Assembly (NCBI GenBank): GCA_003339605.1
Contig: QOVW01000078.1
Span: forward strand, 1-40,124
Source of the DNA: Spirobacillus cienkowskii
Lineage (GTDB): Bacteria > Bdellovibrionota_B > Oligoflexia > Silvanigrellales > Silvanigrellaceae
Direction: 5' to 3'
DNA: 40,124 nucleotides
Positions 19,016-39,090 of this stretch are shown one piece after another. How positions within the stretch are numbered: position 1 is the stretch's first letter; each line of letters begins with the position of its first letter. The notes beneath the pieces were generated by a model. That model had not been told where the DNA came from. It worked only from the letters and a program-made list of their open reading frames with translations, and searched no databases. The translations under genes and the position numbers were made by a program.

Positions 19016-19576
19016 ATGAATAAAGCACAACTTATTGAAAAAGTTAAAGAAGGCATGGAAAAAACAATATCTTCTTTACAATCTGATTTACAAAAAGTTC
19101 GGACAGGTCGTGCGTCTGCATCACTACTTGATGATGTGAAAGTCGAATCTTATGGGTCATTGATGCCATTGAATTCTGTTGCAACGCTTGCAACTCCTGA
19201 AGCGCGTTTGATTACGGTCAATCCGTTTGATAAGAGTATGCTTCCCGTTGTTGAAAAAGCAATTTTGACTTCAGGTCTCGGTTTAACACCTAATAATGAT
19301 GGAAAAATTATTCGTATTCCCATTCCTGCACTTTCAGAAGATCGTCGTAAAGAAATGGCAAAACAAGTTAAGAAAATTGGTGAAGAAGCAAAAATTGCTG
19401 TACGCCATCATCGTCAAGAGGGCAATGCAAAAGCAAAGGCGTTTCAAAAAGAACAAGGTTGGTCCGAAGATGAAGTCAAACGTACAAGCGAAGAAGTGCA
19501 AAAACTCACCGACTCTTATGTAAAGAAAGTTGATGATTTATGCGCTAGTAAAGAAAAGGAAGTATTAACAGTTTAA
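19016..19576 (+). CDS. frr: Ribosome recycling factor
   Basis: RRF splits post-termination ribosomes together with EF-G. The protein is 186 residues, the standard length. Landmarks are SLQSDLQKVRTGRASASLLD (domain I helix with the invariant RTGRA), VESYGSLMPLNSVATLATPEAR, LITVNPFDKSML (domain II) and IPIPALSEDRRKEMAKQVKKIGE, ending with AKIAVRHHRQ and a C-terminal helix with SEDEVKR. AAAGGA stands 7 nt before the ATG. Unlike many bacteria it is not next to pyrH or tsf. It converges with folE2; their stop codons share one palindrome. Confidence 0.97.
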   Translation: MNKAQLIEKVKEGMEKTISSLQSDLQKVRTGRASASLLDDVKVESYGSLMPLNSVATLATPEARLITVNPFDKSMLPVVEKAILTSGLGLTPNNDGKIIRIPIPALSEDRRKEMAKQVKKIGEEAKIAVRHHRQEGNAKAKAFQKEQGWSEDEVKRTSEEVQKLTDSYVKKVDDLCASKEKEVLTV

Positions 19577-22120: not shown

Positions 22121-23323
22121 TTATTTCCATCCGCTGTAAAGAATTGTAAAATTAGGAGAGCTTTGTGTTTGATTTTTAGGATTGTTTTGTTGCTGATCGG
22201 ATTGGTTTTCATTGTTTTGATTTGGTTGTGGGGGAGATGGTTGATCAGAAACGGTCTCTTGTTGCAACACAATAACCAGCGTTTGTTCAACACCATTAAC
22301 AACTCCTCGTGACTCAACTTTAAAGATAGTATCTTTTGTACCAATAAAGTTTTTGGTAATATTCAAAGAATCGGTATTCTCTTTGTAATCACTTAAGTTT
22401 TTTGTTAACCAATCGTTTATGGTACTTTTATTAAAATCATTTTTTAATCTAAACATTTCAAAATTATCCCAATCTAAAGAATTTGGGTCCATATTTTCGG
22501 GTGTCAATAATGTCGCAATCAGTTCAATTGGTGCAGAATTAATATTTAAGGTTCCAGAGCCACCAATAATAGGCCAAATTGTAAAATATGGAGAAAAAAC
22601 GTTATAGATATCATCAAGATGAAACCCAGGAATGCGTCTAAGCTCTTCAAGAGATTCTAAGGCCGCATTCTTTGGTTTGTATTTTGCATTAATATTATTG
22701 TAATCCACCTGAGTTACGTTTCTTAAATATTCGTTTGTGTTAGATATTTTTATATAACTTGTTAAGTTATCAACCAATTGTTGTGGCGTGAGATCAAGAG
22801 TCGCTAAAAACTTTTTTGAATCAGGAGTGCTAAATATTCTTTTTAATGCTTTTTGAGCTTCATTAGAAAAATTGGATTGCAATAAATTTAAATTAAATTT
22901 TGCATTTTCTGAATTGATATTTAATACAAAATATCCTGGCATTACTTTTAACGCAGATAAAATTTCTTTTGAGATTGCTTTTGACAATTTCGCTCCAGAA
23001 AGTTCTTCTAAGCTCTCAAGTCCTGAGGCTCCAATAGGTTGCCCATTCAACATGCTGTACATATTTTTTGGCAGAGGAATAAGAGGATTATTCTGATATT
23101 TTTCTGCTAAAATACTTAAAGAAAGCAATAGTTTTGCGAATTCAACTCCAGTTAACGCCGCAGTTTGTGCATCCAGTTTATTCCGTTCTTCTATCGAACT
23201 GCGTGCGCCAACCTGTGTTTGATAAACAATATCACCAACTATACCCATAATCATGGCAACAAAAACTAAAACAAAAATTAATGCAAATCCTTTTTGTTTT
23301 ATACGGTTTGCAATTATTGCCAT
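22121..23323 (-). CDS. gspK: Type II secretion minor pseudopilin GspK
   Basis: GspK caps the pseudopilus tip with GspI and GspJ. The prepilin site is KQKGFALIFVLVFVAMIMG; position 5 after the cleaved Gly is Phe instead of Glu, as is usual for GspK. GVEFAKLLL, a large alpha domain (INSENAKFNLNLLQ, SLEELRRIPGF, LNINSAPIELIATLL) and a helix-hairpin-helix-like segment match the family. The C-terminal 40 residues are rich in Gln, Asn, Pro and Ser, which is an unusual tail. AGGAG stands 7 nt before the ATG. It overlaps gspJ by 10 nt and ends 6 nt before the phosphoesterase. Length 400 is somewhat longer than the family's usual 320-330, mainly because of that tail. Confidence 0.9.
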   Translation of the reverse strand: MAIIANRIKQKGFALIFVLVFVAMIMGIVGDIVYQTQVGARSSIEERNKLDAQTAALTGVEFAKLLLSLSILAEKYQNNPLIPLPKNMYSMLNGQPIGASGLESLEELSGAKLSKAISKEILSALKVMPGYFVLNINSENAKFNLNLLQSNFSNEAQKALKRIFSTPDSKKFLATLDLTPQQLVDNLTSYIKISNTNEYLRNVTQVDYNNINAKYKPKNAALESLEELRRIPGFHLDDIYNVFSPYFTIWPIIGGSGTLNINSAPIELIATLLTPENMDPNSLDWDNFEMFRLKNDFNKSTINDWLTKNLSDYKENTDSLNITKNFIGTKDTIFKVESRGVVNGVEQTLVIVLQQETVSDQPSPPQPNQNNENQSDQQQNNPKNQTQSSPNFTILYSGWK

Positions 23324-24066
23324 GTGTACTCTCCTGAGCTTCCTTGAACTTCTTGTATACTTGTAGAGCTTAAAATATAAGCAATGGTATCGAGTTTGAG
23401 TGTTTGTGGTTTTGGTTGTGTTGCTGGATTCAATGCGTTGAGTTGTTTGTCTAAGGAGCTTTCAGGGATATAAGTTTCGAGATGAATTTTAACCATTTTA
23501 GGAATTTTATTTTGCGTATCGTTTGCTGAGGAATCCCATTCTTTTCTGAATTGTTTTCCGTCCCAAAATTCAAGCGAGAAATTTTTTAGTTCTGGAACAA
23601 GTAATGTTTGTAATCCAACGCCTTTGTTGCTAATTGGTGATGCCATATCGGTGTCTACAACCCGAAAAAGTTGCCTGCGCCCCGCAAGTCGAGGGTGGGA
23701 CTTTATGAAATAACGCACTACTGCAAGGTTGCTTTCATTGGAATTGGCTAAATACGAACGATGATTTTGAATTGATAAAATAAACTCTTCGTAACGGTAA
23801 AAAAAACGTGGTGCAACTTGCCTTCCTGCAATATTAAGTGAAATAGTATATTTGGGATTAGAAATATAGGCACCTTGAATATCGTCATATATTCTTTGCA
23901 TTGCCATATTAATTGAATGCTGTGCAATATTTTGTTCTGTTACTTTTTCTCTGGTAGAAATTTGTGTCGATAAAATATTAATTGTCAAAACACCAATTGT
24001 TGCAAGAATCGAAACCGCAAGAATAATTTCAATTAATGTAAATCCGAGTTCATTGTTTTGTTTCAT
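23314..24066 (-). CDS. gspJ: Type II secretion minor pseudopilin GspJ
   Basis: This minor pseudopilin belongs to the GspI-J-K tip complex. The prepilin leader MKQNNELG is cleaved before FTLIEIILAVSILATIG; Glu5 is present. A helix with QHSINMAMQRIYDDIQGAY and the beta-rich domain (AVVRYFIKSHP, RQLFRVVDTD, LVPELKNFSLEFWDG) are characteristic of GspJ. Length 250 is slightly above the usual 200-230. The ATG lies inside the end of gspI (17-nt overlap) and has no clear SD of its own, suggesting translational coupling. The upstream codons for the tail of GspI are Asn-rich. Confidence 0.88.
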   Translation of the reverse strand: MKQNNELGFTLIEIILAVSILATIGVLTINILSTQISTREKVTEQNIAQHSINMAMQRIYDDIQGAYISNPKYTISLNIAGRQVAPRFFYRYEEFILSIQNHRSYLANSNESNLAVVRYFIKSHPRLAGRRQLFRVVDTDMASPISNKGVGLQTLLVPELKNFSLEFWDGKQFRKEWDSSANDTQNKIPKMVKIHLETYIPESSLDKQLNALNPATQPKPQTLKLDTIAYILSSTSIQEVQGSSGEYTWQ

Positions 24067-24721
24067 TTGATTGATTACTGCTGTTTGAAGGGTTGTTATT
24101 ATTGTTGTTGGTGCCTAAATTGGGTAAAGAAATATTTTTAAAAATATCTTTATCAATAAGAAAAAATCCTTCAGAAATTTCTTTCTCCGTAATTCCACTT
24201 TGCCATTTTACTTGAATTGTAACATTACTAAATGTGCCTTTAGATGAAGAATTTGTGCTTGCATCAAGGGTTGTAGAAATCATACCTAAAGATTTTTCAA
24301 CATCTAATTTTTCGTTACCTTGTGGGTTAACAAGATTATAAATATTTAAGGCACTAATTAAAAATTGTGAGGTTTTGATTTCTTTAAGAGGTGTTCTTGA
24401 AACTAAAATAGAAAATTCAGGATTTGTTATCCATGGAATTTTAATTGATTCAGGGATATCGCTTTGACTTTTGGTATCGGTAATATATTGCATTTGGGCA
24501 ATTGCAGAGCGAGCGGCCCATGAGGCGCGCAAAGAATCGGAAGCAATTTGAGTGACAGAAATAATAGAAGATTGCAGACCTACAATACTTGCAACAACAA
24601 CGCTCAATATCGCAATTGCTAAGATGCATTCAATTAATGTAAAACCTTGTTGAGAGCATGTTTTAGAATTGCTATTATTCAAATTAGGTTTATTATTTTG
24701 ACAAAGAAAAGTTGGCATCAT
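24050..24721 (-). CDS. gspI: Type II secretion minor pseudopilin GspI
   Basis: GspI starts assembly of the pseudopilus tip. The prepilin site is QQGFTLIECILAIAILSVV with Glu5. The leader of about 25 residues is longer than the usual 5-10. The start is the ATG at 24721 with GAAGG 5 nt upstream; a TTG at 24733 lies before it and another ATG is at 24718. The C-terminal domain contains IQVKWQSGITEKEISEGF, matching the GspI core where the strand W-x-x-G is conserved. The last 25 residues are dominated by Asn, Ser and Gln with a run of Asn. It overlaps gspH by 29 nt and gspJ by 17 nt. Confidence 0.87.
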   Translation of the reverse strand: MMPTFLCQNNKPNLNNSNSKTCSQQGFTLIECILAIAILSVVVASIVGLQSSIISVTQIASDSLRASWAARSAIAQMQYITDTKSQSDIPESIKIPWITNPEFSILVSRTPLKEIKTSQFLISALNIYNLVNPQGNEKLDVEKSLGMISTTLDASTNSSSKGTFSNVTIQVKWQSGITEKEISEGFFLIDKDIFKNISLPNLGTNNNNNNPSNSSNQSNETKQ

Positions 24722-25493
24722 GAAAACCTTCAAGCAAATTGGATTCGCCTGTTAATGTGTTGAGGTTGATTGTATACTTTGCTCCGTCATCATCAATAGC
24801 ATCCTGACGTTGTGGATGTCTTGCTGCCAGTTTAATAGACGTTGGAGTTGCTGTGCCATTTGCTAAAAAGTAGGTGTAAGCATATTCTTTTTTTTCTTTA
24901 GAGTTTTTATTATAAAATTCAGTATACTTATAAACTTTTTTTGAAACTCCAAGTTGCATTTCTGCAAAAACAATTTTACCTGGTAATTTTTGTCTGTATA
25001 TCACCGAATCATCAATCTCTTTCCAGGTCACGGGTTTTAACACTTTGCGTTGTACGACTGGAATACTTCTTAGTGAATAGTATGAATTGTCTGATTTATT
25101 TTGAAAAGGAATTTCTCTATTGCCTTCAATTTTTGCAATTTCATCTAAATATTTTAATAGCTCATTTCGTTTATCTTGTTTGAGCTTGGCATCAAGTTCT
25201 GTTCCGGTTTGGAGTTGGGGAGGACGCCCCTCAAAACCTAAAGGTGCTTGTTCAACCCAGTATTCTCCTGCCGAAAGATCAAAAACCATGCGGTGCATTC
25301 TTCCCGAAAAAATGGCGTCATCATAAGCTGCACGCATTTGTCCAGTTAAATTGCGGAGTGATGAAGACATTTGGGAGTCAACAGATAAGGTGAGGTTAGG
25401 CATCACCACAGCAGCGATGGATCCAATCAGAGCAAGAACTATAATGATTTCAAGTAGCGTAAATCCAAATTCTTCTGAAGCATATTTTTTCAT
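24693..25493 (-). CDS. gspH: Type II secretion minor pseudopilin GspH
   Basis: GspH is a minor pseudopilin of the type II secretion piston. The cleavage site is SEEFGFTLLEIIIVLALIGSIAA with Glu5 and a short positively charged leader. The helix continues with MSSSLRNLTGQMRAAYDDAIFSGRMHRMVFDL, the GspH/FimT hallmark. At 266 residues it is longer than usual (about 170-190) because of an inserted charged stretch (about residues 80-160) in the globular domain. A strong SD is not evident; the 30-nt gap after gspG is A/T rich. Confidence 0.85.
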   Translation of the reverse strand: MKKYASEEFGFTLLEIIIVLALIGSIAAVVMPNLTLSVDSQMSSSLRNLTGQMRAAYDDAIFSGRMHRMVFDLSAGEYWVEQAPLGFEGRPPQLQTGTELDAKLKQDKRNELLKYLDEIAKIEGNREIPFQNKSDNSYYSLRSIPVVQRKVLKPVTWKEIDDSVIYRQKLPGKIVFAEMQLGVSKKVYKYTEFYNKNSKEKKEYAYTYFLANGTATPTSIKLAARHPQRQDAIDDDGAKYTINLNTLTGESNLLEGFHDANFSLSK

Positions 25494-25523
25494 TTTTTTA
25501 ACATAATTTATAGTGTGAATTGC

Positions 25524-25982
25524 TTATTTTGGAACGTTAGGTGCTGCAGGATTGCAGTCAACTTTTTTGCCATTTAAGTAACAAAGAGAAGTCGGGCTAT
25601 TTGGTGCGCCTTCAGACCCGTTAGAACTAATATAAGGTCCTTTTGGTGTTAGCGAATAATTAAATTCATTGCCCCAACCATCTTTGAGATCGTCTTCAGC
25701 AGCAATTGGTGCTCCAGAGTTTGATAAAAGTACTTGGAGTCCTTGCTCTGAAGTTGGAAACTTTCCTGTTGCAAGCTGGTACTGAATCAGTTTGGATTGT
25801 AGTGTAAATGCTTTGGTATCAGTAATTCCTGCTTTGGCATTATCAGCCCCGCCAGTGAGGCGTGCAATGATAATTCCCATTAATGTTCCAATAATTGCAA
25901 TAACAATAATAATTTCAATTAACGAAAAACCAGCTTGTGCTTGAGGTGATTTATTGAATTTAAGAAAATTTTTTAATTTCAT
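25524..25982 (-). CDS. gspG: Type II secretion major pseudopilin GspG
   Basis: GspG is the main subunit of the periplasmic pseudopilus. Gly18 precedes FSLIEIIIVIAIIGTLMG with Glu5, and the rest of the domain has the typical helical repeat, GKFPTSEQGLQVLL, DGWGNEFNYSLTPKGPY and a short Ser/Gly-rich loop. The C-terminal loop carries a Cys pair (LCYLNGKKVDC) that could form a disulfide; many GspG proteins have a calcium site here. At 152 residues it is of normal size. A 53-nt gap separates it from gspF, the largest inside the operon, but no terminator is visible. Confidence 0.95.
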   Translation of the reverse strand: MKLKNFLKFNKSPQAQAGFSLIEIIIVIAIIGTLMGIIIARLTGGADNAKAGITDTKAFTLQSKLIQYQLATGKFPTSEQGLQVLLSNSGAPIAAEDDLKDGWGNEFNYSLTPKGPYISSNGSEGAPNSPTSLCYLNGKKVDCNPAAPNVPK

Positions 25983-26035
25983 AGATACAGTGTCCTCGTG
26001 TTCAGAAAGAAGCTTGATTATACAAATAGTTGTTT

Positions 26036-27265
26036 TTAATGCAACTGGTTCATTGCTGCCATCATAGGGCCAATGACGGCCATGACCATTAAAAAAACAA
26101 TGACGGCCATAAAAATCATCATTGCTGGTTCAATCAGGCGTGTGGTTGTGACAATTTGATTGTTGACATCTTCATCGTATACGTCAGATATGTTAACAAG
26201 CATGTCTTCAAGTTGCCCAGTTTTTTCGCCAGTTCGTAGCATATGAATCACCATTGTCGGAAAACGACCCGTGCGTTCTAGAGCTGTTGCAAGTTTATCA
26301 CCATCTTGAACTTTCACAATGGCTTCGTCCAAGGCTTTTTCCATGACCGTATTTCCAACAACTTTACGGGTTAACTGCAAACCTTCAACAATACGGACGC
26401 CACTTGAAAGAATGGTGGATAGGGTTTTAGAAAAACGAGAAATTGTGACGCGTTGAATCAGTGGACCTAAAATAGGCGCTGTATATAAAAAAAGATCAAT
26501 TTTATAGCGTCCTTTCGGAGTTTTTGACCATGTATAAATTCCAAAAACAGAAGCGCCCAGCACTGAGATACAAAATAACCACCAATTTTGCATCCAATTA
26601 GAAATATCATTCATCAATTCTGTATACCAAGGCAGTGTCACTTTTAATGTTGTAAATGACTTTGTCATTTGTGGCATGACTTTAACAAATAAATAAATGA
26701 CAACTGCAAATGCCATCACAATCATGAGTGCAGGGTATGTGAGTGCTCCTACAACTTTACGCTTAATTTCAATTTGATAATTGATAAACTCTGATAATCT
26801 TTGCATTACAAGTGGAAGTGCTCCAGCCTTTTCTGCTGCGGCAATCATATTTGTATAAATTGAAGAAAAGACTTTCGGATAATTTTTATGTGCATCTGAT
26901 AATGATTTGCCTTCCGAAACAAGTTCTCGAATTTTAATATAAACTGATTTCAGCTCTTCATTTTCGACTTGTTCAGAAATTGCACGCAAGGCATCGTTGA
27001 TATCAACGGCAGAGCGCAATAATATTGCAAATTGTTTTGTGGCAACAGCAATATCTTCTTGTTTTGGGGGTTTGCGATTCAGTTTAGCAAGAAAACTTGT
27101 TGTGCTTTGCGCAGAGTTTGCTCTATCATCAACTTTCATTTCAAGGATATAAATTCCTTGTTTTTTGAGCTTAAGTTTAGCGTCTTTAGGAGATTCTGCT
27201 TCAATGTAGGCCTTAACCTTTTTGCCTGTTTTTGCAAATTGGCCTTTGTAGGAATACATTGGCAT
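26036..27265 (-). CDS. gspF: Type II secretion inner-membrane platform protein GspF
   Basis: GspF is the polytopic platform on which the GspE ATPase turns to build the pseudopilus. The start MPMYSYKGQFAKTGKKVKAYIEAES is characteristic of the family. Two homologous cytoplasmic domains follow (FAILLRSAVDINDALRAI; FSKTLSTILSSGVRIVEGLQ), each ended by membrane helices (ALTYPALMIVMAFAVVIYLF; the C-terminal IEPAMMIFMAVIVFLMVMAV). RTGEKTGQLEDML is the usual glycine-containing motif. Length 409 is standard. The ATG is 1 nt after the gspE stop, with GAGGT in the end of gspE as SD. Confidence 0.95.
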   Translation of the reverse strand: MPMYSYKGQFAKTGKKVKAYIEAESPKDAKLKLKKQGIYILEMKVDDRANSAQSTTSFLAKLNRKPPKQEDIAVATKQFAILLRSAVDINDALRAISEQVENEELKSVYIKIRELVSEGKSLSDAHKNYPKVFSSIYTNMIAAAEKAGALPLVMQRLSEFINYQIEIKRKVVGALTYPALMIVMAFAVVIYLFVKVMPQMTKSFTTLKVTLPWYTELMNDISNWMQNWWLFCISVLGASVFGIYTWSKTPKGRYKIDLFLYTAPILGPLIQRVTISRFSKTLSTILSSGVRIVEGLQLTRKVVGNTVMEKALDEAIVKVQDGDKLATALERTGRFPTMVIHMLRTGEKTGQLEDMLVNISDVYDEDVNNQIVTTTRLIEPAMMIFMAVIVFLMVMAVIGPMMAAMNQLH

Positions 27266-27266
27266 A

Positions 27267-29084
27267 TTAGATTACCTCTTGTTGTTGTTCATGCTCAGAT
27301 TGTGTTGCATACAGAGCTTCTTCTAACGTTGTTTCTCCATTTAAAAACCGTTCTTGAGCCGAGTCTCTCAGAGTTTTCATGCCTCTTTGCACACACATTT
27401 TTTTAAGGCTTGCGCCATCTGAACTTTTTAAAACAAAATTTCTAACCGGTTCATCAAAAATTAAAAGCTCATAAATTCCAATTCTTCCCGAATACCCTGT
27501 TGTTTTACAAGCAGGACAACCGCCCTCTTTGGCTTTATAGAATGTTTTTCCGTGCGAATCTTTTTTTGTTAAGCCAATAAGCTCAAGTTCTTCTGCGGTA
27601 TGTTGGGTTTCTTCTCTGCATTGAAAACACACTTTTCTCACCAATCGAACGGCTAATATGGCAACAACGGAGGTCGTGATTTGAAATGGCTCAATTCCAA
27701 AATCCACCAAGCGAGTCACAGAAGCTGCTGTGTCGTTAGTGTGTAACGTACTAAATACTAAGTGACCTGTAATCGATGCTTGCACCGCAATTTGCGCGGT
27801 TTCTGCATCACGAATTTCACCAATTAAAATGATGTTTGGATTTTGTCTTAGGATTGAGCGCAGTGCAGCTGCAAAGGTGAGTCCTGCTTTTTCGTTGACT
27901 TCAACTTGACTCACCCCTGGTAATTGAATTTCGACGGGGTCTTCAACAGTGATAATACTCACATCGGGCTTGTTAATATGCATCAACGCAGATGCAAGTG
28001 TTGTTGTTTTACCAGAGCCTGTAGGCCCTGTGACTAACACAATACCGTGTTTTTGATTGATCACTTGCTTAAAATTTTTAAGAAGAGATTTGGGCATGCC
28101 AATATCGTCAAGATAAGGCAGGCCACCCGATTTATCAAGAATTCTAAGCACAATGCGTTCGCCAAATTTAATTGGCAAGGTGCTAACACGAACATCAATC
28201 TCTCGTGTTCCTACTTTTAAAGTAATACGCCCGTCTTGTGGCAAGCGGCTTTCAGCGATGTTTAGTTTGGCTAAAATTTTTATGCGTGTCGAAACACTGG
28301 ATTGATACTTTTTAGGGATGACCCGTACTTCTTTTAAACGGCCATCTATTCTAAAACGCACCGACACCCGATCTTCAAAGGGTTCAATATGAATATCAGA
28401 TGCTTTTTCTGTAATACTGCGTCTTATAATTGCTGTGACTTCTTTTCGAACAGGGGCTTCTTCATTGTCTTGCAATAAATTATGGGCAACATCAAGACCT
28501 TCTATGCCTTCAATATCATCATCTGAACCCAGTCCTTTGTTTTGATCCACAAGCTCTTGGCGTTCAAAGACATTATTGATTGCAGCCTCAACAAGATCTT
28601 TTGGAGCCACAATTCTTTTAATATTTTTGTTGAGCAATACTCTCAAATCATCAATGCTCACTGTATCCAATGGATTTGTAACGACCACAGTCACATTCAA
28701 ATCGTCTTCTGAAATTGGAACAAACATATTTTGGAGACAAAAGCTTATACTCAATTTTTGAATGAGTTTAGGATTGATTTCATGAAATGGAAAGTTATCT
28801 AAATATTCTAAATTAAGATGTTTGGCATATGCTTTTAATAACTCTGATTCTTGTATCACTTCATTTTCTATAAGAATTTCAAAAATACTTTTGAGTGTAT
28901 TGCTATGTTCATCATAAGCTTCGTTCCATTGAGCCTGAGTCAATTGAAACTCTTCTATTAATATTTGCTCAAGACTTTTTGAAGAAAGCGAAACCTCAGG
29001 TTGCACTTTTGTTATGTTTTTAGCCTTAATTTTGGCAAGAATTTCTTGGCCTAAATTTTCTGCTAGAGTTGCCTTTGTTATCAT
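27267..29084 (-). CDS. gspE: Type II secretion ATPase GspE
   Basis: GspE is the hexameric cytoplasmic ATPase that powers pseudopilus assembly. An N-terminal GspE-N/N1 region (about 1-170) docks to GspL in other systems. The AAA core contains Walker A GPTGSGKTT (353-361), the Asp box SIITVEDPVEIQLPG, Walker B NIILIGEIRD and the His box STLHTNDTA. A zinc tetracysteine follows (Cys486, Cys489, Cys523, Cys526) with GYSGRIGIYELL after it. Length 605 is longer than the usual 500, mainly in the N-terminal region. AAGGTGG precedes the ATG; the upstream gspD stop is 18 nt away. It presumably needs a GspL partner that is not encoded in this window. Confidence 0.95.
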   Translation of the reverse strand: MITKATLAENLGQEILAKIKAKNITKVQPEVSLSSKSLEQILIEEFQLTQAQWNEAYDEHSNTLKSIFEILIENEVIQESELLKAYAKHLNLEYLDNFPFHEINPKLIQKLSISFCLQNMFVPISEDDLNVTVVVTNPLDTVSIDDLRVLLNKNIKRIVAPKDLVEAAINNVFERQELVDQNKGLGSDDDIEGIEGLDVAHNLLQDNEEAPVRKEVTAIIRRSITEKASDIHIEPFEDRVSVRFRIDGRLKEVRVIPKKYQSSVSTRIKILAKLNIAESRLPQDGRITLKVGTREIDVRVSTLPIKFGERIVLRILDKSGGLPYLDDIGMPKSLLKNFKQVINQKHGIVLVTGPTGSGKTTTLASALMHINKPDVSIITVEDPVEIQLPGVSQVEVNEKAGLTFAAALRSILRQNPNIILIGEIRDAETAQIAVQASITGHLVFSTLHTNDTAASVTRLVDFGIEPFQITTSVVAILAVRLVRKVCFQCREETQHTAEELELIGLTKKDSHGKTFYKAKEGGCPACKTTGYSGRIGIYELLIFDEPVRNFVLKSSDGASLKKMCVQRGMKTLRDSAQERFLNGETTLEEALYATQSEHEQQQEVI

Positions 29085-29102
29085 GGATTGCCACCTTATT
29101 TC

Positions 29103-31454
29103 TTAATTACCAAATGGAGGAGGTGGAGGCGCTAGAGGTGCTGACGTTTGTGGAAAGCCAAAACCGCCCGAGCTTTGATTAGAAGATGGCGCATTGATGG
29201 GGTTTGGATCTTGGCTAGGCATGATAACGCTTTTTGGTTGAATATATTCGTCATCGGACACTTCAAATCCATTTTTTTCTTGAGAGCTTTGATCAGAAGG
29301 CGCTTTACCTTGTTCTCTTGATGGCATTTGTGAATAAAAGCTTTGTTCTTTGTATTTTTCGCCATAAAAAAACTTTAAAAAGAGATCTCTGTCTTTAATT
29401 TTTTGTTCATACACTTTTTCGAGATCTTCAGAGTTTCTCACAATGTGAGGGGTTACAAAAAGATTTAAGCTTGTTTTCTTTTTATCGTTTCTGCTCTTTT
29501 TAAATAGCCAGCCAAGTATTGGTATATCTCCAAGTAAAGGCACTTTTTCTTCAGAAACGGTAATGCGATCTTGAGTTAATCCGCCAATAACCGCTGTTTG
29601 TCCATTTTGCACAATCACTACAGATTCGGCAGTGCGTTTGCTAATGGGGTTTGGATAACCGTTCGTAGTGACAGCACCACTGTCATCAAGCTGCAAATTG
29701 ATTTTCATAGAAACAAAATCGGCTCGCGAAATTTGGGGGGTGACCTTTAGAGCCGTTGTCACGGTATATTTTTGTGGTTGAGCAACTGTTCCTGTTCCGT
29801 TGGGGTTTGGGATTTGAATGACGGTGCTGTATTCTTGGTTTGAAGAAAACGACGCCGCTTCGTTGTCGGACACCATCATGCTTGGGTTTTGTAAAATATT
29901 TGAGTTGACGTCTTGTTTTAAACCAAAAATAAGGGCTCCTGGGGTTAAGCTAAAAGCGCCAAGGCTAATTGGTTTAGAGCTCATGATTCCTAAAATTGCG
30001 TCAGAACCTAACGATGACGCAAGGCTTGTTGGATCCGAACTTCCTGATTTGCTAAAAAATAGTGGTGCACCTTTTAGAGCATTGAATCCAAATGGCACTG
30101 TGTACCTGCCATCCGAAGTTTGTGCTGCACCGCCAAGACTTGTGCCAATATTTAAGCCGTTGTTAACTTCCATATCAATAATATTGGCTTCAACATACAC
30201 TTGTGCGCGTCGTTTATCGAGTTGCGCAATGATGTTATCAAGTTCTTCAAAAGCAGATTTGCTACCTTGAATCACTAAAGAGTTTGTTGCTTTGTCTGCT
30301 GTAACTTTAACTCCATTGAGATCAGCAACCGCTTGTGATTGCGAAGAGCCAGGAGCATTGGGAGTCATGGGAGCTGGCGGAAAATAAGGAGGTCGGTATG
30401 TGTTATTGAATTGAGATTTTGCAGCTTGAGTGAGCGCTTGTAGTGTTTGCGCAAGTTTTTCGGCATCGGCGTAATCAAGTGGACGCACACGAACCATGGT
30501 TTGCGAATTTTGATCGAGTGATGGTTTATCAATACGTTGAATAAAGCGCACAACATCATCAAGGCCACTTGCAGGTCCTACAAGAATTATAGAATTGGTA
30601 CGCTCATCAGCGATCACTTTTTGGACGCTCAATGAAGGTCCATTACGATTACCAAAAATTTCGTTTACTTTAACAACCGTATCTTTAGCATCCATGTAAT
30701 TAATTGGGATAATCGACACAACTGGTTGGTTTGTTTTGGAGTCAAGAAGCTTTATCACTTCTAAAATACGACGGATGCGGTTACCTGTGTCAGTTAAAAT
30801 TAAAGAATTTGTTGTTGTAAATGCAGCATATTGTGTGATTCCTAACAAAGGACGAAGCTGATTGATCACAGAATTGGCATCAATGTATCGTAATGGAATG
30901 ACTTGATTGATAATTTCATCAGTTGATGGTGACCAATTTTCTCCGTAATAAGTTTTAATATTTGATGATTTGGCATTTGCAATTGGAAGAATCTTAACAA
31001 CAGAACCAGTATCAACTGTGGTAAAGCCAGCAATATTAAGTGCACTTAAAAATGCTTGGTATGCTTCTTCTTTCGTTACAGGTTCTGGCGAAATAATAGA
31101 TATTCGTGAAGACCCGGCAACTCCTTGGGCAAGTACAAAGTTTTTGCCAGTCCAGAGGCCAATTGTTTTAATAATGTCGCTTAAACTAGCTCCATTTGGA
31201 AAATCAATGCTAACAAGCTCTTTGCCATGTGGAATGCTAGAAGCTTGTGACATATTTTCATTTGTTTTTTTATTATTTTGCGCAGCTGCTGATTGAGCTT
31301 GAATATTGCTATTATTTTGCTTTGCTGGTGACTGTTGTGCTGAAACAGAATAAGAAAATAAAACTCCAATCAGTGTTGCAATCCATTTTGAATGACCTGG
31401 ATTTGTTGGTTGAGAAAAAGTTGTCGAACATTTTTTTAAAAATTTTTGATTCAT
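29103..31454 (-). CDS. gspD: Type II secretion secretin GspD
   Basis: GspD is the outer-membrane secretin through which folded proteins leave. A signal peptide with cleavage near VSAQ (about residue 40) is preceded by a long basic N-region. A Gln/Asn/Ala-rich linker (41-70) leads to the N0-N3 domains (DIIKTIGLWTGKNFVLA; VIPLRYIDANSVINQLRPLL; IRRILEVIKLLD; VRPLDYADAEKLAQTL). The secretin domain shows QVYVEANIIDME, ITVSEEKVPLLGDIPILGWLF and LFVTPHIVRN. The tail after about residue 690 is Ser/Gln-rich and ends with a Pro run. No obvious S-domain or pilotin site was recognised. It overlaps the second gspC-like gene by 4 nt. Confidence 0.95.
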   Translation of the reverse strand: MNQKFLKKCSTTFSQPTNPGHSKWIATLIGVLFSYSVSAQQSPAKQNNSNIQAQSAAAQNNKKTNENMSQASSIPHGKELVSIDFPNGASLSDIIKTIGLWTGKNFVLAQGVAGSSRISIISPEPVTKEEAYQAFLSALNIAGFTTVDTGSVVKILPIANAKSSNIKTYYGENWSPSTDEIINQVIPLRYIDANSVINQLRPLLGITQYAAFTTTNSLILTDTGNRIRRILEVIKLLDSKTNQPVVSIIPINYMDAKDTVVKVNEIFGNRNGPSLSVQKVIADERTNSIILVGPASGLDDVVRFIQRIDKPSLDQNSQTMVRVRPLDYADAEKLAQTLQALTQAAKSQFNNTYRPPYFPPAPMTPNAPGSSQSQAVADLNGVKVTADKATNSLVIQGSKSAFEELDNIIAQLDKRRAQVYVEANIIDMEVNNGLNIGTSLGGAAQTSDGRYTVPFGFNALKGAPLFFSKSGSSDPTSLASSLGSDAILGIMSSKPISLGAFSLTPGALIFGLKQDVNSNILQNPSMMVSDNEAASFSSNQEYSTVIQIPNPNGTGTVAQPQKYTVTTALKVTPQISRADFVSMKINLQLDDSGAVTTNGYPNPISKRTAESVVIVQNGQTAVIGGLTQDRITVSEEKVPLLGDIPILGWLFKKSRNDKKKTSLNLFVTPHIVRNSEDLEKVYEQKIKDRDLFLKFFYGEKYKEQSFYSQMPSREQGKAPSDQSSQEKNGFEVSDDEYIQPKSVIMPSQDPNPINAPSSNQSSGGFGFPQTSAPLAPPPPPFGN

Positions 31455-32392
31455 CTAACATTTACCTTCTTAGTCATCTTTACGCCATTCCTTTGAAATT
31501 GCAAAATGATTTCATATTCATCCTGAAGAACTTCATAGATTTTAAATCCTTGTGAAGGATCCTCAAGATTAATGCCATTAACATTTGTAATAATATCGCC
31601 ATTTTGAAGTTGCATTTTTTCAAAAAGACTACCTGGTGTGATTTCATACACTTTAAATCCAATTGTTTTTCCATTAATTGATTCAGGAATGAGTCGTGCT
31701 GTATTAAGAATTTTAGAATATCCTGGACCAATTTCATCCAATACATAGTCTGTATCAAGATCAATGGTTTCTTCCAAAGAAGGGGTATTTTTTTCTGGTT
31801 TAACTGGATTTTGTTTTTTAATTGGGCTTGTATAAATACAAATTTTTTTATTAATATGACGAATTTCAACAGACTGAGGATTGGGTATTTTATATATTTG
31901 GTAGTTTTCATTATCAATTATATGTTGTCCTTCTTTATAAACGTCCGCTGTTTCTACGCTAGGATCTTTAAATGTTACAAGATTGGTTTTAGGATTGCCA
32001 GTGTAAATAATGCCTACAATCTCAATGGGAAGTTGCGAATCTTTAGGAGAACATGGAATCGTATCAAAGTCTTTAATAAGATTTATAGAGCTATCATCAT
32101 TTTCATCTTCATCAGGTGTGAGAGTATCTTTATTAAAAATATTTCTTGCTAAAATTGATTTACGCAATTGAGAAGAAGTGCTCGCCGAACTTTGTGGAAC
32201 ATTATAAAATAAATTATTTTCCACGGTCGATTTTGGTTTTTCTAAGAGTGCAATAGATATAATAGAATTAAAAATAGCTGTGCCAGATAAAATTGCAAAA
32301 ATAAAAACAAACACATTTCTAAGAGATGTTTTTTTAAAAATTCTACTCTTTTTCTTTAATTTTAAAAATGAATTTTGTTGTTCTTGACTCAT
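31451..32392 (-). CDS. GspC-like inner-membrane protein with PDZ domain, copy 2
   Basis: GspC links the inner-membrane platform to the secretin and takes part in substrate choice. A short basic cytoplasmic part precedes one membrane helix (about 27-50, VFVFIFAILSGTAIFNSII). The HR domain starts at SILARNIFNKD and includes IEIVGIIYTGNPKTNLVTFK; it contains a Cys pair (IPCSP, KKICIY) equivalent to that of copy 1. The C-terminal PDZ reads IGFKVYEITPGSLFEKMQL, then GDIITNVNGINLEDP and YEIILQFQRNG. The two copies differ clearly in sequence outside these motifs. Length 313. ATGA overlaps join it to the gspC-like copy upstream and to gspD downstream, so all three are coupled. Confidence 0.82.
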   Translation of the reverse strand: MSQEQQNSFLKLKKKSRIFKKTSLRNVFVFIFAILSGTAIFNSIISIALLEKPKSTVENNLFYNVPQSSASTSSQLRKSILARNIFNKDTLTPDEDENDDSSINLIKDFDTIPCSPKDSQLPIEIVGIIYTGNPKTNLVTFKDPSVETADVYKEGQHIIDNENYQIYKIPNPQSVEIRHINKKICIYTSPIKKQNPVKPEKNTPSLEETIDLDTDYVLDEIGPGYSKILNTARLIPESINGKTIGFKVYEITPGSLFEKMQLQNGDIITNVNGINLEDPSQGFKIYEVLQDEYEIILQFQRNGVKMTKKVNVR

Positions 32393-33318
32393 TGTACGTT
32401 CACTTTTAATGTAATAGTTTGGCCACCTCTTAAGAGTTGAATTTCTATGTTGTTTTCATTTCGTAACGAGTTTAAGGTTTGAATTGCCCGTGCTGCATCA
32501 TTCAATTCAATTCCGTTAATAGAAGACACAATATCTCCATCTTTTAATCCCAATTTTGAGTAAACGCTATCAGGAGTAATGTTTGTAATTGAAAAACCTT
32601 TGACTTGGCCTCCAACAAGATTTGGATTTGCTTTAGCCTCTTCAAGAGTTTTGGCAAAATTATAAGTTAATACATTATTGATCCAAGAACGCGTGACTGT
32701 TGTATTATTTCCTGCTCGTTCAAATCCATTTTCTTTATAAGCTGATCCAGAGGAATTTTGATTCGATCGAGAACCACGCGGATTGAGTGTTTCTGGATAG
32801 CTCAGGTCAATATATTCTGGACAGTTTTTATTTGTAATTAAAATTCTATTTTTTTGAATATCAGTTAAGGTACCACCTAGCGGTAAAGATTCACCTAACT
32901 TAAAAATATTTTTATTTTGTCCTTCTAACACAACCAAACTATTTTTTGCACTACCACCGTATAAAATACCAGAAATTTTATAAGGAAAATTCGATTTAAA
33001 TGGTTCTAGTGTGCAGACCGGAGCTCCTTGTGTATTGGAATCTGGTATTAAACCCTTAAGGTTAAAAATATTTCGAGTAATGATCAAATTCAGATCTTCA
33101 AGAGGCTTTGTGACAACTGCTGGGATATTGATTTTGGCTGGAATGGAGGATTGCTCAACATGTGTCTTTTTAACAAGCTGAAAAATAGTAAGGCCAATTC
33201 CTGCAACAACAACAAGCCCAATAGTGGTCAATGCAAAAGGCATCACCTTTTCGGCTGGTGGAATGCTAACATCAGGAGAAAATAGTTTGTATTTTAGTTT
33301 TGCAATAATTCGAATCAT
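32389..33318 (-). CDS. gspC: GspC-like inner-membrane protein with PDZ domain, copy 1
   Basis: This is a type II secretion GspC. The membrane helix covers about residues 27-49 (FALTTIGLVVVAGIGLTIF). The HR domain begins with LIITRNIFNLKG, the family's RNIF motif, and continues through YKISGILYGGSAKNSLVVLE, the strand pair that binds the secretin N0 domain. It has only two Cys residues (APVCTL and NKNCPEY), probably disulfide-linked. The C-terminal PDZ has VKGFSITNITPDSVYSKLGL and GDIVSSINGIELND. Length 309 is typical. The gene follows the phosphatase gene by 20 nt and overlaps the second copy by 4 nt (ATGA). Which copy is the functional GspC, or whether both act together, cannot be read from sequence. 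Confidence 0.88.
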   Translation of the reverse strand: MIRIIAKLKYKLFSPDVSIPPAEKVMPFALTTIGLVVVAGIGLTIFQLVKKTHVEQSSIPAKINIPAVVTKPLEDLNLIITRNIFNLKGLIPDSNTQGAPVCTLEPFKSNFPYKISGILYGGSAKNSLVVLEGQNKNIFKLGESLPLGGTLTDIQKNRILITNKNCPEYIDLSYPETLNPRGSRSNQNSSGSAYKENGFERAGNNTTVTRSWINNVLTYNFAKTLEEAKANPNLVGGQVKGFSITNITPDSVYSKLGLKDGDIVSSINGIELNDAARAIQTLNSLRNENNIEIQLLRGGQTITLKVNVQ

Positions 33319-33338: not shown

Positions 33339-34964
33339 TTAATAATATTTTATACGTGTTACAACAACTGTTACATCGTCTTCCAGAGGTTTACTCGTTC
33401 CGTAAAACTCAAGAGAATCTTGTAACAGAAGAGAAACAAATTCAGAACTTGCTTTGGTATAATTTTTTTCAATAAATTTTCTGAGCCTGCGTTTGCCATA
33501 TTCTTCTTCTTTGTCATTTTTATTTTCAATCAACCCATCAGTATAAAAGAAAATAAATTCGCCGCCTTGAATTGGCACTTCTTTTTTTTCAAACACCTTT
33601 TTTTCAACCTTTGCTGGTCCAGAGTTACCAAGGCGGTTACCTGTTGCGATCAGGGCTTCTACTTTTTTGTCTTGTTTGACAATCAGTGGAAAATTATGTC
33701 CCGCATTGGCGTACCTTAGCACTTTTTTTTCAAAATCAAAAACGCTCGAAAAACAAGTCATGTTGTAACTCACTTCACTGTTGCCCATACTCGTTAACAC
33801 AATATCAAATCCTTCTAATATCTGATCCACATCGAGGTCTTCACCAGATAAAAGTTTTGATTTTATTGAAACAAAATATCCAGAAATTGCAGCAGTCACC
33901 ATTGCGCTTGCAGTACCATGACCTGTCACGTCAGCAATAAAGACATAAAATTTGTCTTTTAGTGAAATTGTGTTCCACCAGTCGCCTCCGCAAAAAGCGG
34001 CTGGTATCGCGGTGCCAAAACAATCTACCATTTGGTGCTCAGGGGCAATTTGAGGTAAAAATGTTTTTTGCACCAATTGACTGGTTGCCAGTTCCATCTC
34101 TAATGTTCTTCTTTGACCTTCTTTTTCTTCAATTTCTTTTTTAATTTGATCGTAACGCTTGGCGAGTTCGTCGTTGGCTCGACCAAGTTCATAGTTACTT
34201 TTATTGACCTGATTAAAAAGTCTTACTGTTTCTGCCTGGTTTTTGGCAATCATCGTGTAACCAAGAAGCACACCAGTTGTACTTTCAATTTTGACGCCAT
34301 TAATAGAAAATGGAAGGAGTTCACCTTCTGAGGTTTGCACAAAAACTTCCACATCTCTCACAAACCCTTGAGTGGTAAATTGAATTTCCAGCTCTAGATA
34401 GTAATCAACAAGACTTTCTGCATGGGGAAATAACTTTCTAATATGTTGCCCTATTAAATCAGCTTGCGAAAATTGAGTTGTTTCACATGCTGATTTATTG
34501 GCTTTCATGATGATGCCATCTTGATTGAGTAAGAACATCATTTCAAACATGTTATCGACAACTTGGTCAATAAATCGTTGATGCTCTAAAATACCACGAG
34601 CCACTTCAAGCAGTTTTAAATGTGATTCTGAAGTAAAGCTATTCAGTTGTTCTTCTGGTAAAAGATCAAGCTTTTGCATTGAAACCATATGAATAGTTTG
34701 CAAAAGTTTTTGTGTTGGATTGATAAACTCTTCGTGCCATTCTTCTGTAAATGACCGTATTTTTTTTGTAAAATAATAGGTAAATAATCCAGATGCAGCT
34801 ATCATTATGATAAAAATAATATTAAGAAAAATATTTGCTATAAAAATATTTCCTATAACACCAATTAGTGTTATGAATGCAATAAAACCGTAAAGATTGC
34901 TTATTAATTTTTTAATGATTACGGTCCATTTTTTTATAATGTCTTCAATTGTAACTGCACTCAA
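33339..34964 (-). CDS. Membrane PAS-SpoIIE (PP2C-type) serine phosphatase
   Basis: This 541-residue signal protein has two N-terminal membrane helices (about 24-62), a charged juxtamembrane part, a PAS domain (about 140-250, FEMMFLLNQDGIIMKANKSA), a coiled coil (about 255-300) and a PP2C-like SpoIIE domain. The phosphatase part carries the metal Asp in FCGGDWWNT, DVTGHGTASAMV, YANAGHNFPL and FFYTDGLIEN, followed by DDVTVVVTR at the end. Such enzymes usually dephosphorylate an anti-sigma-antagonist or similar regulator. It starts at a TTG with AAGGAGA about 9 nt upstream; no better start is in frame. It is the first gene of the leftward type II secretion unit, 20 nt from gspC, so it is probably cotranscribed. 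Confidence 0.88.
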   Translation of the reverse strand: MSAVTIEDIIKKWTVIIKKLISNLYGFIAFITLIGVIGNIFIANIFLNIIFIIMIAASGLFTYYFTKKIRSFTEEWHEEFINPTQKLLQTIHMVSMQKLDLLPEEQLNSFTSESHLKLLEVARGILEHQRFIDQVVDNMFEMMFLLNQDGIIMKANKSACETTQFSQADLIGQHIRKLFPHAESLVDYYLELEIQFTTQGFVRDVEVFVQTSEGELLPFSINGVKIESTTGVLLGYTMIAKNQAETVRLFNQVNKSNYELGRANDELAKRYDQIKKEIEEKEGQRRTLEMELATSQLVQKTFLPQIAPEHQMVDCFGTAIPAAFCGGDWWNTISLKDKFYVFIADVTGHGTASAMVTAAISGYFVSIKSKLLSGEDLDVDQILEGFDIVLTSMGNSEVSYNMTCFSSVFDFEKKVLRYANAGHNFPLIVKQDKKVEALIATGNRLGNSGPAKVEKKVFEKKEVPIQGGEFIFFYTDGLIENKNDKEEEYGKRRLRKFIEKNYTKASSEFVSLLLQDSLEFYGTSKPLEDDVTVVVTRIKYY

Positions 34965-35030
34965 TCAAATATTCTCCTTCTCTTCATTTTAGTTCTATCG
35001 ATGAAATTGAGATGTCAGTTAAATGAAACT

Positions 35031-35059
35031 TTGAAATCTTCTTACAGTATGTCAATACT
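35031..35059 (+). promoter_or_regulatory. Possible promoter of the MCP-like gene
   Basis: TTGAAA (35031-35036) and AATACT (35054-35059) are separated by 17 nt. The -10 part overlaps the dyad at 35044-35061. On the other strand the same dyad includes TTGACA, a good -35 for the leftward operon, though a matching -10 is not evident. Confidence 0.35.
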
Positions 35060-35061
35060 GT
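35044..35061. promoter_or_regulatory. Palindromic operator candidate between divergent units
   Basis: ACAGTAT and its exact reverse complement ATACTGT flank GTCA, giving an 18-bp dyad in the spacer between the leftward phosphatase/type II secretion unit and the rightward MCP-like gene. No T-run follows, so a protein-binding site is more likely than a terminator. It would overlap possible promoter elements on both strands. Confidence 0.4.
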
Positions 35062-35134
35062 GGCTCCTCATATTGGTGTTACATTAACCGATGAATACAT
35101 AGGAATTTATTTAGACCGCGGGCTGGAGTGCTTC

Positions 35135-37009
35135 ATGGAAGAAATCCGATTTAAACCAACAATATTTGTTCTTATTGCAATATTTGGAGCCAGTGCCATT
35201 GCATCTACCGGGTTTGTTTCAACGGATTGGATGCTTACAACTGCTGTTAGTGTTGTGCTTTTTTTGCTTTCTTATGTATGGTTTTTTTCTGTAAGAAAAA
35301 GAATTGATGAAATTTTGACACATGATCTCGACAAAATTGCCAATGATGCAGCGCGTGCAATTCGAGAAGAAATCGAATCCGCGTCTCCAATGACCTCAGA
35401 AAGAGAAAATGTCGAGAAAGCAAGACAGCTCGAAATTAGAGAAAAAGATATCATAGCACGTGAAAAAGAGCTTGTGAAAAAAATCGAAGAGCTTGAGCTT
35501 AAGAAAAAATCATTTGAACAAGCTTCATCAATTCCTTCTATTACTTCTCTGTCTGGTTCAAAATCTAAAGACTCTGCATCAAAAGAAGAGCTTTTGCAAA
35601 GAGAAATTATTTCTTTGCGGCATCAGTTGTTACATTTAGAAGAAGTGAACAATTCTCGTTTATCTGCTTTGCAGCATGAGTTTCAATCTAAAAATGTTCA
35701 GGCACAAAAAAATATGGAATTTTGGAAATCAAGTGCTGAGAGCATGAACAAGAAGCTCCAAGATCAGAAGCGTGAATTTGATTCGCTTGCTAAATCACTA
35801 GAAAGTCGTGCTGTGCTTGCCGAAGAAAGAGCACTCGAGCAACAAACTCGGCTTAATAAGTTACAACTCGAAACTTCGCAAAAAGAAATTGGTGTCAGTG
35901 AGCAGGTACAGCGGTTAGAGGAAATTATTTCACTTGTGCCAGAGATGACCAATCAATTGCATAACGTCACTCATCAAACGGAGCGCAGTGCTATTGAAAT
36001 TGGTGACAAAGTACGATTTATTTATGAAAAAGCACAAGAACACTTAGAAGAATCTAACGAAATTTCTGCACAATTTAGAGGCGGTAAAGGCAACAATAGC
36101 AATACATCATTGAGTGAAGTGATTCAAAGTAGCTTGTCTTTGCTTCGTGAAATGATCGAAATGTTAGAGCATAACTCAAAATTAAACATGGATTACTCCC
36201 AAGCAATTGATACCATTCTTGTGAATACGGCAGAAATTAATAAAATCAGTGATGAAATTCAATATATTTCTGATCAAACAAACCTTCTTGCTCTCAATGC
36301 GGCAATTGAGGCGGCGCGTGCTGGGGAACATGGACGTGGTTTCTCAGTGGTTGCTGAGGAAGTTCGTAAACTTTCGGATCGTACAAGTTTGGCGAGTAAT
36401 AACATTATCCAAATTGTCGGTAAGGTTAACTCAAGTGTAAGAGATATTAGTAGAAGCTTACTAGAAAACTTAAAGAAAAATACAGAAAAGAAAACTCACG
36501 TGGATCACGCCGTAAATGAATTGGTTCGTACAGCAGAAGAAAGCACAGAAGTGTTTACTAAACTCATTTCTAATGCTGTTGCAAGCTCAGAAAGTGTGGC
36601 AAAAAATATCGATCAAATTATTTTAAGCTTACAGTTCCAAGATATTACAAAACAACAAATTGATCAGGCATTGCAGCCTCTCGATAAGATCAAAATCAAC
36701 ATTGAAGAACTTCTTAATAAAGCATTGCAAAATGATGCCTTGGCATTAAAAGCGGCGCATCAGCAAGGTGGTGGCAGTGATGGAGGTGGTTCTGATAGTG
36801 GTAGAGGAGGAAGCACCCCTCCACCTGTAACAACTCCTCCAGCGAATACCCCACCGCCAGCTCCGCCTTCTGGTGCTGCGCCAAAAGCCAGCGCACCTGC
36901 AAAGCCAGCGGCACCTGCGCCTGCAAAACCCGCTCCCGCACCGGTTTCCAGTTCAAGCTCAAGCGTTGAAGATGAGTCTTTGGTTAAAGGGGATGTGGTG
37001 TTTTTCTAA
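35135..37009 (+). CDS. MCP-like chemotaxis/signal transducer without sensor domain
   Basis: This is a methyl-accepting-chemotaxis-protein-like transducer. Two adjacent membrane helices near the N-terminus (about residues 7-50) leave only a few periplasmic residues, so no extracytoplasmic sensor domain exists. A long charged coiled coil (about 75-300) follows. The MCP signalling tip is [20 protein letters not shown] (about 378-397) then [18 protein letters not shown], which would contact CheA/CheW. A terminal [15 protein letters not shown] segment precedes a Gly/Ser- then Ala/Pro-rich tail. The ATG at 35135 has GGAG 6 nt upstream; a GTG at 35060 opens the frame earlier without an SD. It is 624 residues, divergent from the secretion operon and 173 nt before the AAA+ regulator. 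Confidence 0.88.
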
Positions 37010-37182
37010 GTTGTTATCTTTTCAGTTTATTCCTTTTTTAAATTTTTGCCGAAAAAACTCCCAAATGTTCTCTTGTTAAAATTTTTTCAAGGTGTCATAA
37101 TAAAACTAAGTATTCTTGAATAAATTTTATCTTTTGAAGAAAGCGTCAATTGGCTTTGCCATATGAGCTTAGGGGGCGTTCT

Positions 37183-38640
37183 GTGAATGGTTCATATGCA
37201 TTAATGGGATCCAGTGCCATCATAAGGCATGTGCAACATCTTGTGTATAAAGTTGCTGAAACATCATCAGCAGTGTTGATCACCGGTGAACCAGGGACGG
37301 GCAAAGATGCAATTGCAAAAATTATTCATGAACGATCGCAGCGCGCGAAAGCAAATTTTATTCCTGTAAAATGCGGTGTGGCAACCGAAGAAAGTTTGGA
37401 GCTTGATTTATTTGGCTATGAAAATGGTTATATCCAAGGAAATAGCCAAGGCAGATCTGGTTATTTTGTTGAAGCAGATGCCGGAACTTTATATATTGAT
37501 GAAATTGGTAAGCTCTCGCTAAAATTGCAAGCCTCTTTATTAAAAACAATGATCGAAGGTAGTATTCGGAGTTTTGGGTCAAGTCTTGATTTGCCTATTA
37601 ATGTTCGAATTATTTGTTCAACTTCTGTTGATTTGGAGCAGCTTGTCAAGCGGGGAGCATTTTTAGAAGATCTTTATTATAAGCTGACCGCTGCCTCAAT
37701 TTATTTGCCGCCAATTCGTGAACGACGTGAAGACATCCCTATTTTAACTGAGTTTTTTATTCAAAAATTTAATCAAATAAAATCTAAAAAAATTGCTGGT
37801 ATTTCGCATGATGCAATGAATGCTTTATTACAAAATGTATGGACTCATAATATTCAGGAGCTCGAAAATTTAATTGAGCGGATTGTTGTGTTAAAAACTT
37901 CGGGAAGTGTTGATATTTGTGATTTGCCGCCACGACTTAGAAATTTAGTCACAGATAATATTGATGCTTTTTATGACAGATCTGCACAAACGTATCAGGC
38001 TTCTGCAAATCATAATCACGCCCTTTCAAACTCGTTTCATCAAACTTCAGGACAAAACAATGTCTCAGGTTATGCAAAAGCAATGCATACAAATACGATA
38101 ACACAGCATAATTTGTATCAAAATTCAATGTCACGAGATGCGCATGCATCTGGGCATACGCCAACATTAACAAAAAACTCTCTTTCATCTGCGGTCAATA
38201 ATTATTCTCAAAATGCTGGAACGCAGCAAAATTATCCACAAAATCAAGTCAGTTCACATCAAGCGCATCAGTCAATGAGTCGTGCTTCTTCTATGTTTGA
38301 AGATTTGCCAAGTGAAATTGATCAATTTATTAAAAAAGAAATTGATTTGGGAGCGGGAATTGATTTTTATCGGGTGGTTGAAGAGTTTGAAAATCGCTTA
38401 ATATCAGAAGCGCTGAGAAGGACTAACCACAATAAAAATAGGGCAGCGCAATTGCTTTCTATGAACCGCACGACGCTTGTCGAAAAATTAAAAAAGCGAG
38501 CCACATCATCGCCAGTTAAAAATGAGACTGGACGAGTAAAAAGAAATTCTGCATTTACAATTTTTGATGGTCTTGGAAACGAAAAATCAGAGTTTGAAGG
38601 AATTGATTTTGTAAATATTAGTTCAGAAGATACGCCTTAA
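37183..38640 (+). CDS. Receiver-less AAA+/Fis regulator with degenerate sigma-54 motifs
   Basis: The protein has the AAA+ core of bacterial enhancer-binding proteins and a Fis-type helix-turn-helix at the C-terminus, but no receiver domain. From the GTG start, Walker A GEPGTGKD is at 35-42 and Walker B TLYIDEIG keeps its Asp-Glu (106-107). The loop that should read GAFTGA is GYIQGN (82-87). The two arginine-finger positions in FLEDLYYKL are Leu161 and Lys167, and sensor II reads NIQEL with Gln225 instead of Arg. A Gln/Asn/His/Ser-rich linker of about 100 residues precedes the HTH (NKNRAAQLLSMNRTTLVEKL). I chose the GTG because AGGGGG stands 6 nt upstream; a TTG at 37150 is the alternative. 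DNA binding seems intact; sigma-54 activation is doubtful. Confidence 0.85.
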   Translation: MNGSYALMGSSAIIRHVQHLVYKVAETSSAVLITGEPGTGKDAIAKIIHERSQRAKANFIPVKCGVATEESLELDLFGYENGYIQGNSQGRSGYFVEADAGTLYIDEIGKLSLKLQASLLKTMIEGSIRSFGSSLDLPINVRIICSTSVDLEQLVKRGAFLEDLYYKLTAASIYLPPIRERREDIPILTEFFIQKFNQIKSKKIAGISHDAMNALLQNVWTHNIQELENLIERIVVLKTSGSVDICDLPPRLRNLVTDNIDAFYDRSAQTYQASANHNHALSNSFHQTSGQNNVSGYAKAMHTNTITQHNLYQNSMSRDAHASGHTPTLTKNSLSSAVNNYSQNAGTQQNYPQNQVSSHQAHQSMSRASSMFEDLPSEIDQFIKKEIDLGAGIDFYRVVEEFENRLISEALRRTNHNKNRAAQLLSMNRTTLVEKLKKRATSSPVKNETGRVKRNSAFTIFDGLGNEKSEFEGIDFVNISSEDTP

Positions 38641-39090
38641 AAAATTAAAATATTGTAAATTGCATTGTGGTTTATTTTGCTTAATATTTATTTATCACTT
38701 CCTTTCGTGGATTGAGAAAACACTTCGTTACTTAGATTCAAAACATGAAAATATAAATAAACATAAATATAATTAGCTTGTAATTTTGCAATTTAATGTT
38801 AAAAAACATCGTATTTGTTATATTTAAATTTAATGATTTTAAAATTTTATTTAATTGTTAAAAATCAATTTTATATTATTACAATTAAAACTTACACTTA
38901 AGTATGATATTTATTAGTTTTAAAATTGCTAAAAATATTTTTAGTTTTAATTTAATTGCTATTTTTATATTATTATAATTTTTTAAAAAAAGTTTTAAAT
39001 TTTTTTTTATATATATATTTTATTTCATGTAGTATAAATAATTTTTCTTGTATCTACAAAAAATAAAAATTATTTAACAAAGGAAGCTGT
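38641..39090. other. Very AT-rich spacer with no gene
   Basis: This 450-nt region has no credible open frame. It is strongly AT-biased, particularly after about 38800. It contains a perfect 16-bp palindrome CTAAAAATATTTTTAG (38929-38944) followed by T-rich sequence; it could be a weak terminator or chance. A TATAAATAAT string near 39032-39041 is a possible -10 region for the following gene. No tRNA, repeat array or mobile-element end was seen. Confidence 0.5.

Follow-up and report, generated by a model that had tools for sequence, protein, structure and literature searches.

The locus analyzed here raises the question of what an enhancer-binding protein (EBP) does once it has lost the residues that couple it to sigma-54. 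The window, a 40,124-nucleotide stretch of Spirobacillus cienkowskii DNA (contig QOVW01000078.1), contains a forward-strand ORF (37183..38640; 485 aa; GTG start) that encodes a degenerate FleQ/NtrC-type EBP, as judged from the ORF list, Pfam, and the start common to its orthologs. A TTG at 37150 is also in frame; the ortholog starts match the GTG codon at 37183 instead, which agrees with the boundaries given in an earlier note on this DNA. Pfam searches detected Sigma54_activat (2.5e-48), AAA_lid_14 (3e-22), and HTH_8 (4.9e-13), the AAA+ and lid domains and the C-terminal Fis-type HTH that define NtrC-type AAA+/Fis EBPs, and found no receiver domain. The closest fold and solved structure to the AAA+ domain is that of FleQ (TM 0.94-0.95). 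A Gln/Asn/His/Ser-rich linker (38017..38328, forward), which varies in length among orthologs, is predicted to be disordered (pLDDT < 50 at residues 279-377 and 379-382). The missing receiver domain, the intact HTH, and the linker had all been recognized in the earlier note. In addition, the orthologs keep a C-terminal motif, KRNSAFTIFDGLG (38539..38577, forward; ortholog comparison), which is absent from the C-termini listed for canonical relatives.

Residues of the AAA+ motor were called from an alignment to 69 canonical relatives that share the same HTH motif; all positions are on the forward strand. Of the features that mark a sigma-54 activator, the window protein has the Walker A (GEPGTGKD, 37285..37308) and Walker B (TLYIDEIG, 37486..37509) motifs. 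It lacks GAFTGA, which is replaced by GYIQGN in the L1 loop (37426..37443), both arginines of the R-finger region, where FREDLYYRL has become FLEDLYYKL (37663..37683), the sensor II Arg, which is Gln (NIREL to NIQEL, 37855..37857), and the switch Asn, which is Lys (VKC, 37369..37371; Asn in 68 of 69 relatives). The sensor I Asn is likewise changed, to Ser (CSTS). The alignment bears out every substitution and both kept Walker motifs named in the earlier note, whose list of losses missed only the switch and sensor I residues.

Whole-genome searches of 14 Silvanigrellales genomes, 13 from the window's family (the window included) and one from a sister family, recovered an ortholog in each, and GAFTGA occurs in none of the 14 aligned proteins. 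Their L1 loops read GYIQGN, GYFQGN, NNLQGG, SSLHAG, GYVPQS, GYLPQN, SSVSSN, GAFAAT, or GAFPGA (three species), or are partially or completely deleted; the change of Thr4 to Pro, as in GAFPGA of genus g4, is a noted preference (PMC3162934). Motif losses in a single sequence, taken alone, could mean that a canonical gene had been hit by a sequencing error or by recent pseudogenization, and the earlier note had looked to canonical close homologs as the sign of such an error. This explanation, to which we give practically no chance, is ruled out by the same loss in 14 independent assemblies, by open reading frames, and by dN/dS values well below 1. Several other genera (G007, G008, G009, G011, and G012) retain the R-fingers and the sensor II Arg; the L1 loop was therefore lost first, and the ATPase residues later in the window's genus. 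Two orthologs, G010 (GTKKE) and G013 (GTGCQ), have a broken Walker A motif. At the Walker B Asp, G007, G009, G011, and G012 have Glu, and G013 has lost the residue. Selection is therefore not preserving nucleotide handling. With these losses of Walker A in two lineages and of the Walker B Asp in several, decay of the motor residues goes on within the clade. The nucleotide binding proposed in the earlier note thus holds as a local prediction for the window protein, in which ATP binding could still matter, the Walker motifs being intact, and does not extend to several of its orthologs.

The MNRTTLVEK HTH also occurs in 69 EBPs of Bdellovibrionota, Myxococcota, Zetaproteobacteria, and Nitrospirota. 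A GAFTGA-type loop is present in 67 of them (GAFTGA, GSFTGA, or GAFSGA in 65; GAYTGA in two), and the loci of some (L087, L089) hold flagellar genes. In a tree built with a quick method, the 14 orthologs form one clade (SH-aLRT 100), with no clear sister group, inside a larger starred clade (75 rows, mostly canonical EBPs), in line with a loss of sigma-54 coupling before Silvanigrellales diversified. In two EBPs of Myxococcales (L102:8909-10213 and L118:8834-10156), which combine receiver-like N-termini with the same HTH type, GMNRTTLVEKLRRR, the whole GAFTGA loop has been lost, apparently an independent case of the same decay. The loop is also deleted or altered in two Bdellovibrionota proteins that belong to the canonical group (L082:9095-10192 and L050:1400-2464). 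A further EBP of these genomes (L141, G000:C64, and its orthologs) keeps every ATPase residue, with a loop that reads GSFTNA, GAFTNA, or GAFTSA instead of GAFTGA. EBPs with an NRTTLVER-type HTH and intact GAFTGA (L028, L095, and L117) adjoin the gene for ribosome recycling factor (frr); in the window, frr lies at 19016-19576, beyond the type II secretion (T2SS) operon as seen from the EBP gene.

The DNA-binding part of the protein has followed a different course from its motor. The Fis-type HTH (38365..38499, forward), with the recognition helix MNRTTLVEKLKKR, is nearly invariant across the order: its 45 residues are identical throughout the genus (1.00) and 0.98 identical to those of genus g4, compared with 0.78 and 0.55 for the AAA+ domain of the same protein. 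In two control EBPs from the same genomes, the AAA+ domain is more conserved than the HTH (0.88/0.81 and 0.86/0.82 within the genus; control group B was used within the genus only, one sequence beyond it ending at a contig edge). Free divergence at synonymous HTH sites shows that this identity is maintained at the protein level. Estimates of dN/dS lie near 0.055-0.09 for the AAA+ domain and near 0.03-0.06 for the controls (valid pairs; control pairs with infinite values or values above 1, due to mis-mapped codons, were left out), which means that constraint is relaxed rather than absent, with the fold kept and catalysis released. Together, the orthologs, the HTH identities, and the residue alignment support the central proposal of the earlier note, a protein predicted to have given up sigma-54 activation and kept DNA binding. 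Its further suggestion of a co-regulator acting with a true activator at shared sites found no support: among the other proteins of this genome, none carries an HTH that comes close (the best matches at 38% over 45 aa, E 0.001), and competition with a canonical activator for such sites is therefore disfavored.

The genomic neighborhood points to a possible target. The T2SS operon (22121..33318, reverse; two gspC-like genes, gspD, gspE, gspF, pseudopilins, and gspK), sometimes joined by a PAS-SpoIIE phosphatase gene, diverges from the gene of an MCP-like membrane protein, which is followed by the EBP gene. In the window, the divergent phosphatase gene, which some members of the order lack, lies at 33339..34964 (reverse), and the MCP-like gene upstream of the EBP lies at 35060..37009 (forward), with its true start probably at ATG 35135 (Pfam and ortholog loci). 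Comparison of the ortholog loci showed that the EBP gene stands beside the T2SS operon in 14 of 14 genomes. In G001 the MCP gene is missing and the EBP gene diverges directly from gspC; in the sister-family genome G013 the place of the MCP gene is taken by an unrelated ORF (L131:7533-8366; 277 aa, no Pfam match). The constant pair is thus EBP and T2SS, and of the targets that the earlier note had guessed from the MCP neighbor (motility, secretion, or envelope), type II secretion is now the preferred candidate in place of motility. Adjacency alone is no proof of T2SS control. On its other side, the EBP gene is separated by a 450-base, very A+T-rich geneless stretch (38641-39090) from an ORF without Pfam match (39091-40077).

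Upstream sequences were inspected for promoters and operators. A sigma-70-like promoter, TTGTTA-N17-CATAAT, precedes the EBP gene (37073..37101, forward) and is similar in orthologs, and another, TTGAAA-N17-AATACT, conserved in the genus, precedes the MCP-like gene (35031..35059, forward). The region holds about as many promoter-like sites as chance would give (7 versus 5.5), and the support for sigma-70 promoters is their conservation, assessed by eye. The GG-N10-GC core of sigma-54 -24/-12 promoters was not found in the genus control regions of the linked genes. In the T2SS/MCP control region (window 34965-35134 or its equivalent), a comparison of 2304 tetramer-palindrome patterns over seven lineages puts GTCA-N6-TGAC first (Fisher p 0.0006); the sites of the g4 lineage had been seen before this formal ranking, and with g4 left out the pattern ranks second of 2304 (p 0.01). 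In the MCP-EBP gap its rank is 1287 of 2304, and it is not enriched genome-wide (14 matches in G000, 15 for the reversed control), and a scan for exact palindromes across lineages gave no shared exact operator. The published FleQ box is GTCAAT-N2-ATTGAC (PMC10723142). A pattern scan placed two candidate FleQ-like boxes in the window, each matching 7 of 8 positions and neither assigned a strand: GTCAGTTAAATGAA (35014..35027), just upstream of the MCP -35 element, and GTCAATACTGTGGC (35051..35064), which overlaps the -10 element. GTCA-N6-TGAC is regarded here as no more than a candidate operator of this EBP. Loci of other genera (L125, L126, L127, L128, and L129) carry a conserved leader, TCCGCAGGGAGCGGGGAT(G/T)AGGAG, with a CCGC-N5-GCGG hairpin immediately ahead of the EBP start codon; these are absent from the window's genus.

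The explanation that we consider probable is that a FleQ-like EBP has become a sigma-54-independent local regulator of the T2SS/MCP region, working through sigma-70 promoters. A FleQ-like ancestor would have lost sigma-54 coupling early, before the order diversified. Dimers of the Fis-type HTH would bind GTCA-N6-TGAC-like sites that flank and overlap the divergent promoters, and the AAA+ domain would serve as a pseudo-ATPase scaffold for dimerization or oligomerization, perhaps with ligand sensing. The protein would then act at the sigma-70 promoters of the adjacent divergent T2SS/MCP control region; control of T2SS in this way, through ordinary sigma-70 promoters, is what we infer as probable from sequence. 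Because one candidate box overlaps the -10 element, repression by occlusion seems slightly more likely than class-II activation. Two other causes of the motif loss were examined: loss of sigma-54 is ruled out by the presence of RpoN in G000-G012 (it was not found in G013, a 74% complete assembly with another, intact-GAFTGA EBP), and loss of flagella is unsupported, as FliG_C matches are strong in the Silvanigrellales genomes searched.

Other roles would fit parts of these data. The extreme constraint on the HTH beside a decaying AAA+ domain would also be expected of a local nucleoid-like, Fis-like architectural protein or an autoregulator whose main job is not T2SS and whose neighborhood, conserved anyway, is inherited synteny. 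We regard this as unlikely, given that the EBP-gspC pair is found in all 14 genomes although its MCP and phosphatase neighbors are present in some and missing in others, and that the candidate box pattern marks the T2SS/MCP gap and not the MCP-EBP gap. An EBP still linked to sigma-54, as a dominant-negative or regulatory subunit that enters the ring of a canonical EBP and modulates its ATPase without activating alone, would account for the purifying selection on the AAA+ fold, the intact Walker motifs of the window protein, and the presence of RpoN and canonical EBPs in these genomes. The AAA+ interface, however, diverges among orthologs, even at Walker A and B; no canonical partner gene lies nearby, and the genus control region has no sigma-54 core promoter. 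No other part of the protein is nearly as conserved as the HTH, which is also unique in its genome; this points to direct DNA control, and we hold a ring subunit to be rather improbable. A bolder version of the local-regulator explanation would couple an MCP-like sensor to the pseudo-ATPase EBP throughout the order, with T2SS set from sigma-70 promoters through contact of the new KRNxAFTIFDGLG tail with the sensor or with RNA polymerase, and the AAA+ ring as a passive scaffold able to lose nucleotide binding; this is a long shot.

The analysis puts this EBP forward as a possible regulator of type II secretion in Silvanigrellales. Its orthologs form a series, from GAFPGA with R-fingers, through proteins that lack R-fingers and sensor II, to proteins that lack Walker A/B, all with a fixed HTH, and thus offer a ready-made system for studying the role of the EBP AAA+ domain once sigma-54 activation is gone. 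A practical consequence is that EBP counts based on PF00158 only overcount sigma-54 activators.

Among known proteins, canonical short EBPs of Bdellovibrionales (L053, L081, and L089; about 350-400 aa), with an MNRTTLVEKLRKR HTH, share the recognition helix and the lack of a receiver domain with the window protein, but have intact GAFTGA, R-fingers, and sensor II, and the L089 locus, unlike that of the window, also contains flagellar rod genes. FleQ of Pseudomonas aeruginosa, which regulates biofilm promoters without sigma-54 (PMC10723142), resembles the window EBP in its AAA+ fold, its similar recognition helix, RTTLVEK, and a box pattern like that of the candidate sites. In contrast to FleQ, the window EBP lacks a receiver-like N-terminal domain, GAFTGA, the R-fingers, sensor II, and the switch Asn, carries an extra conserved C-terminal motif, and is linked to T2SS and an MCP-like gene rather than a flagellar cluster. 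VpsR, TyrR, DhaR, HupR, and YplP are EBP paralogs without functional GAFTGA, of which TyrR, DhaR, and HupR were shown to be sigma-70 dependent (PMC3162934). The window protein shares with them descent from sigma-54 EBPs and a defective GAFTGA, and its intact HTH and the sigma-70-like promoter sequences would fit a regulator of the TyrR/DhaR/HupR/VpsR kind. The Silvanigrellales EBP differs in its separate origin, its T2SS linkage, its lack of a receiver, and its wider loss of ATPase residues, up to Walker A/B. GAFTGA loss as such is an already known phenomenon; as far as the limited literature searched shows, what is new is the extent of the loss, its order-wide progression while the HTH stayed frozen, the link to T2SS, and the C-terminal motif.
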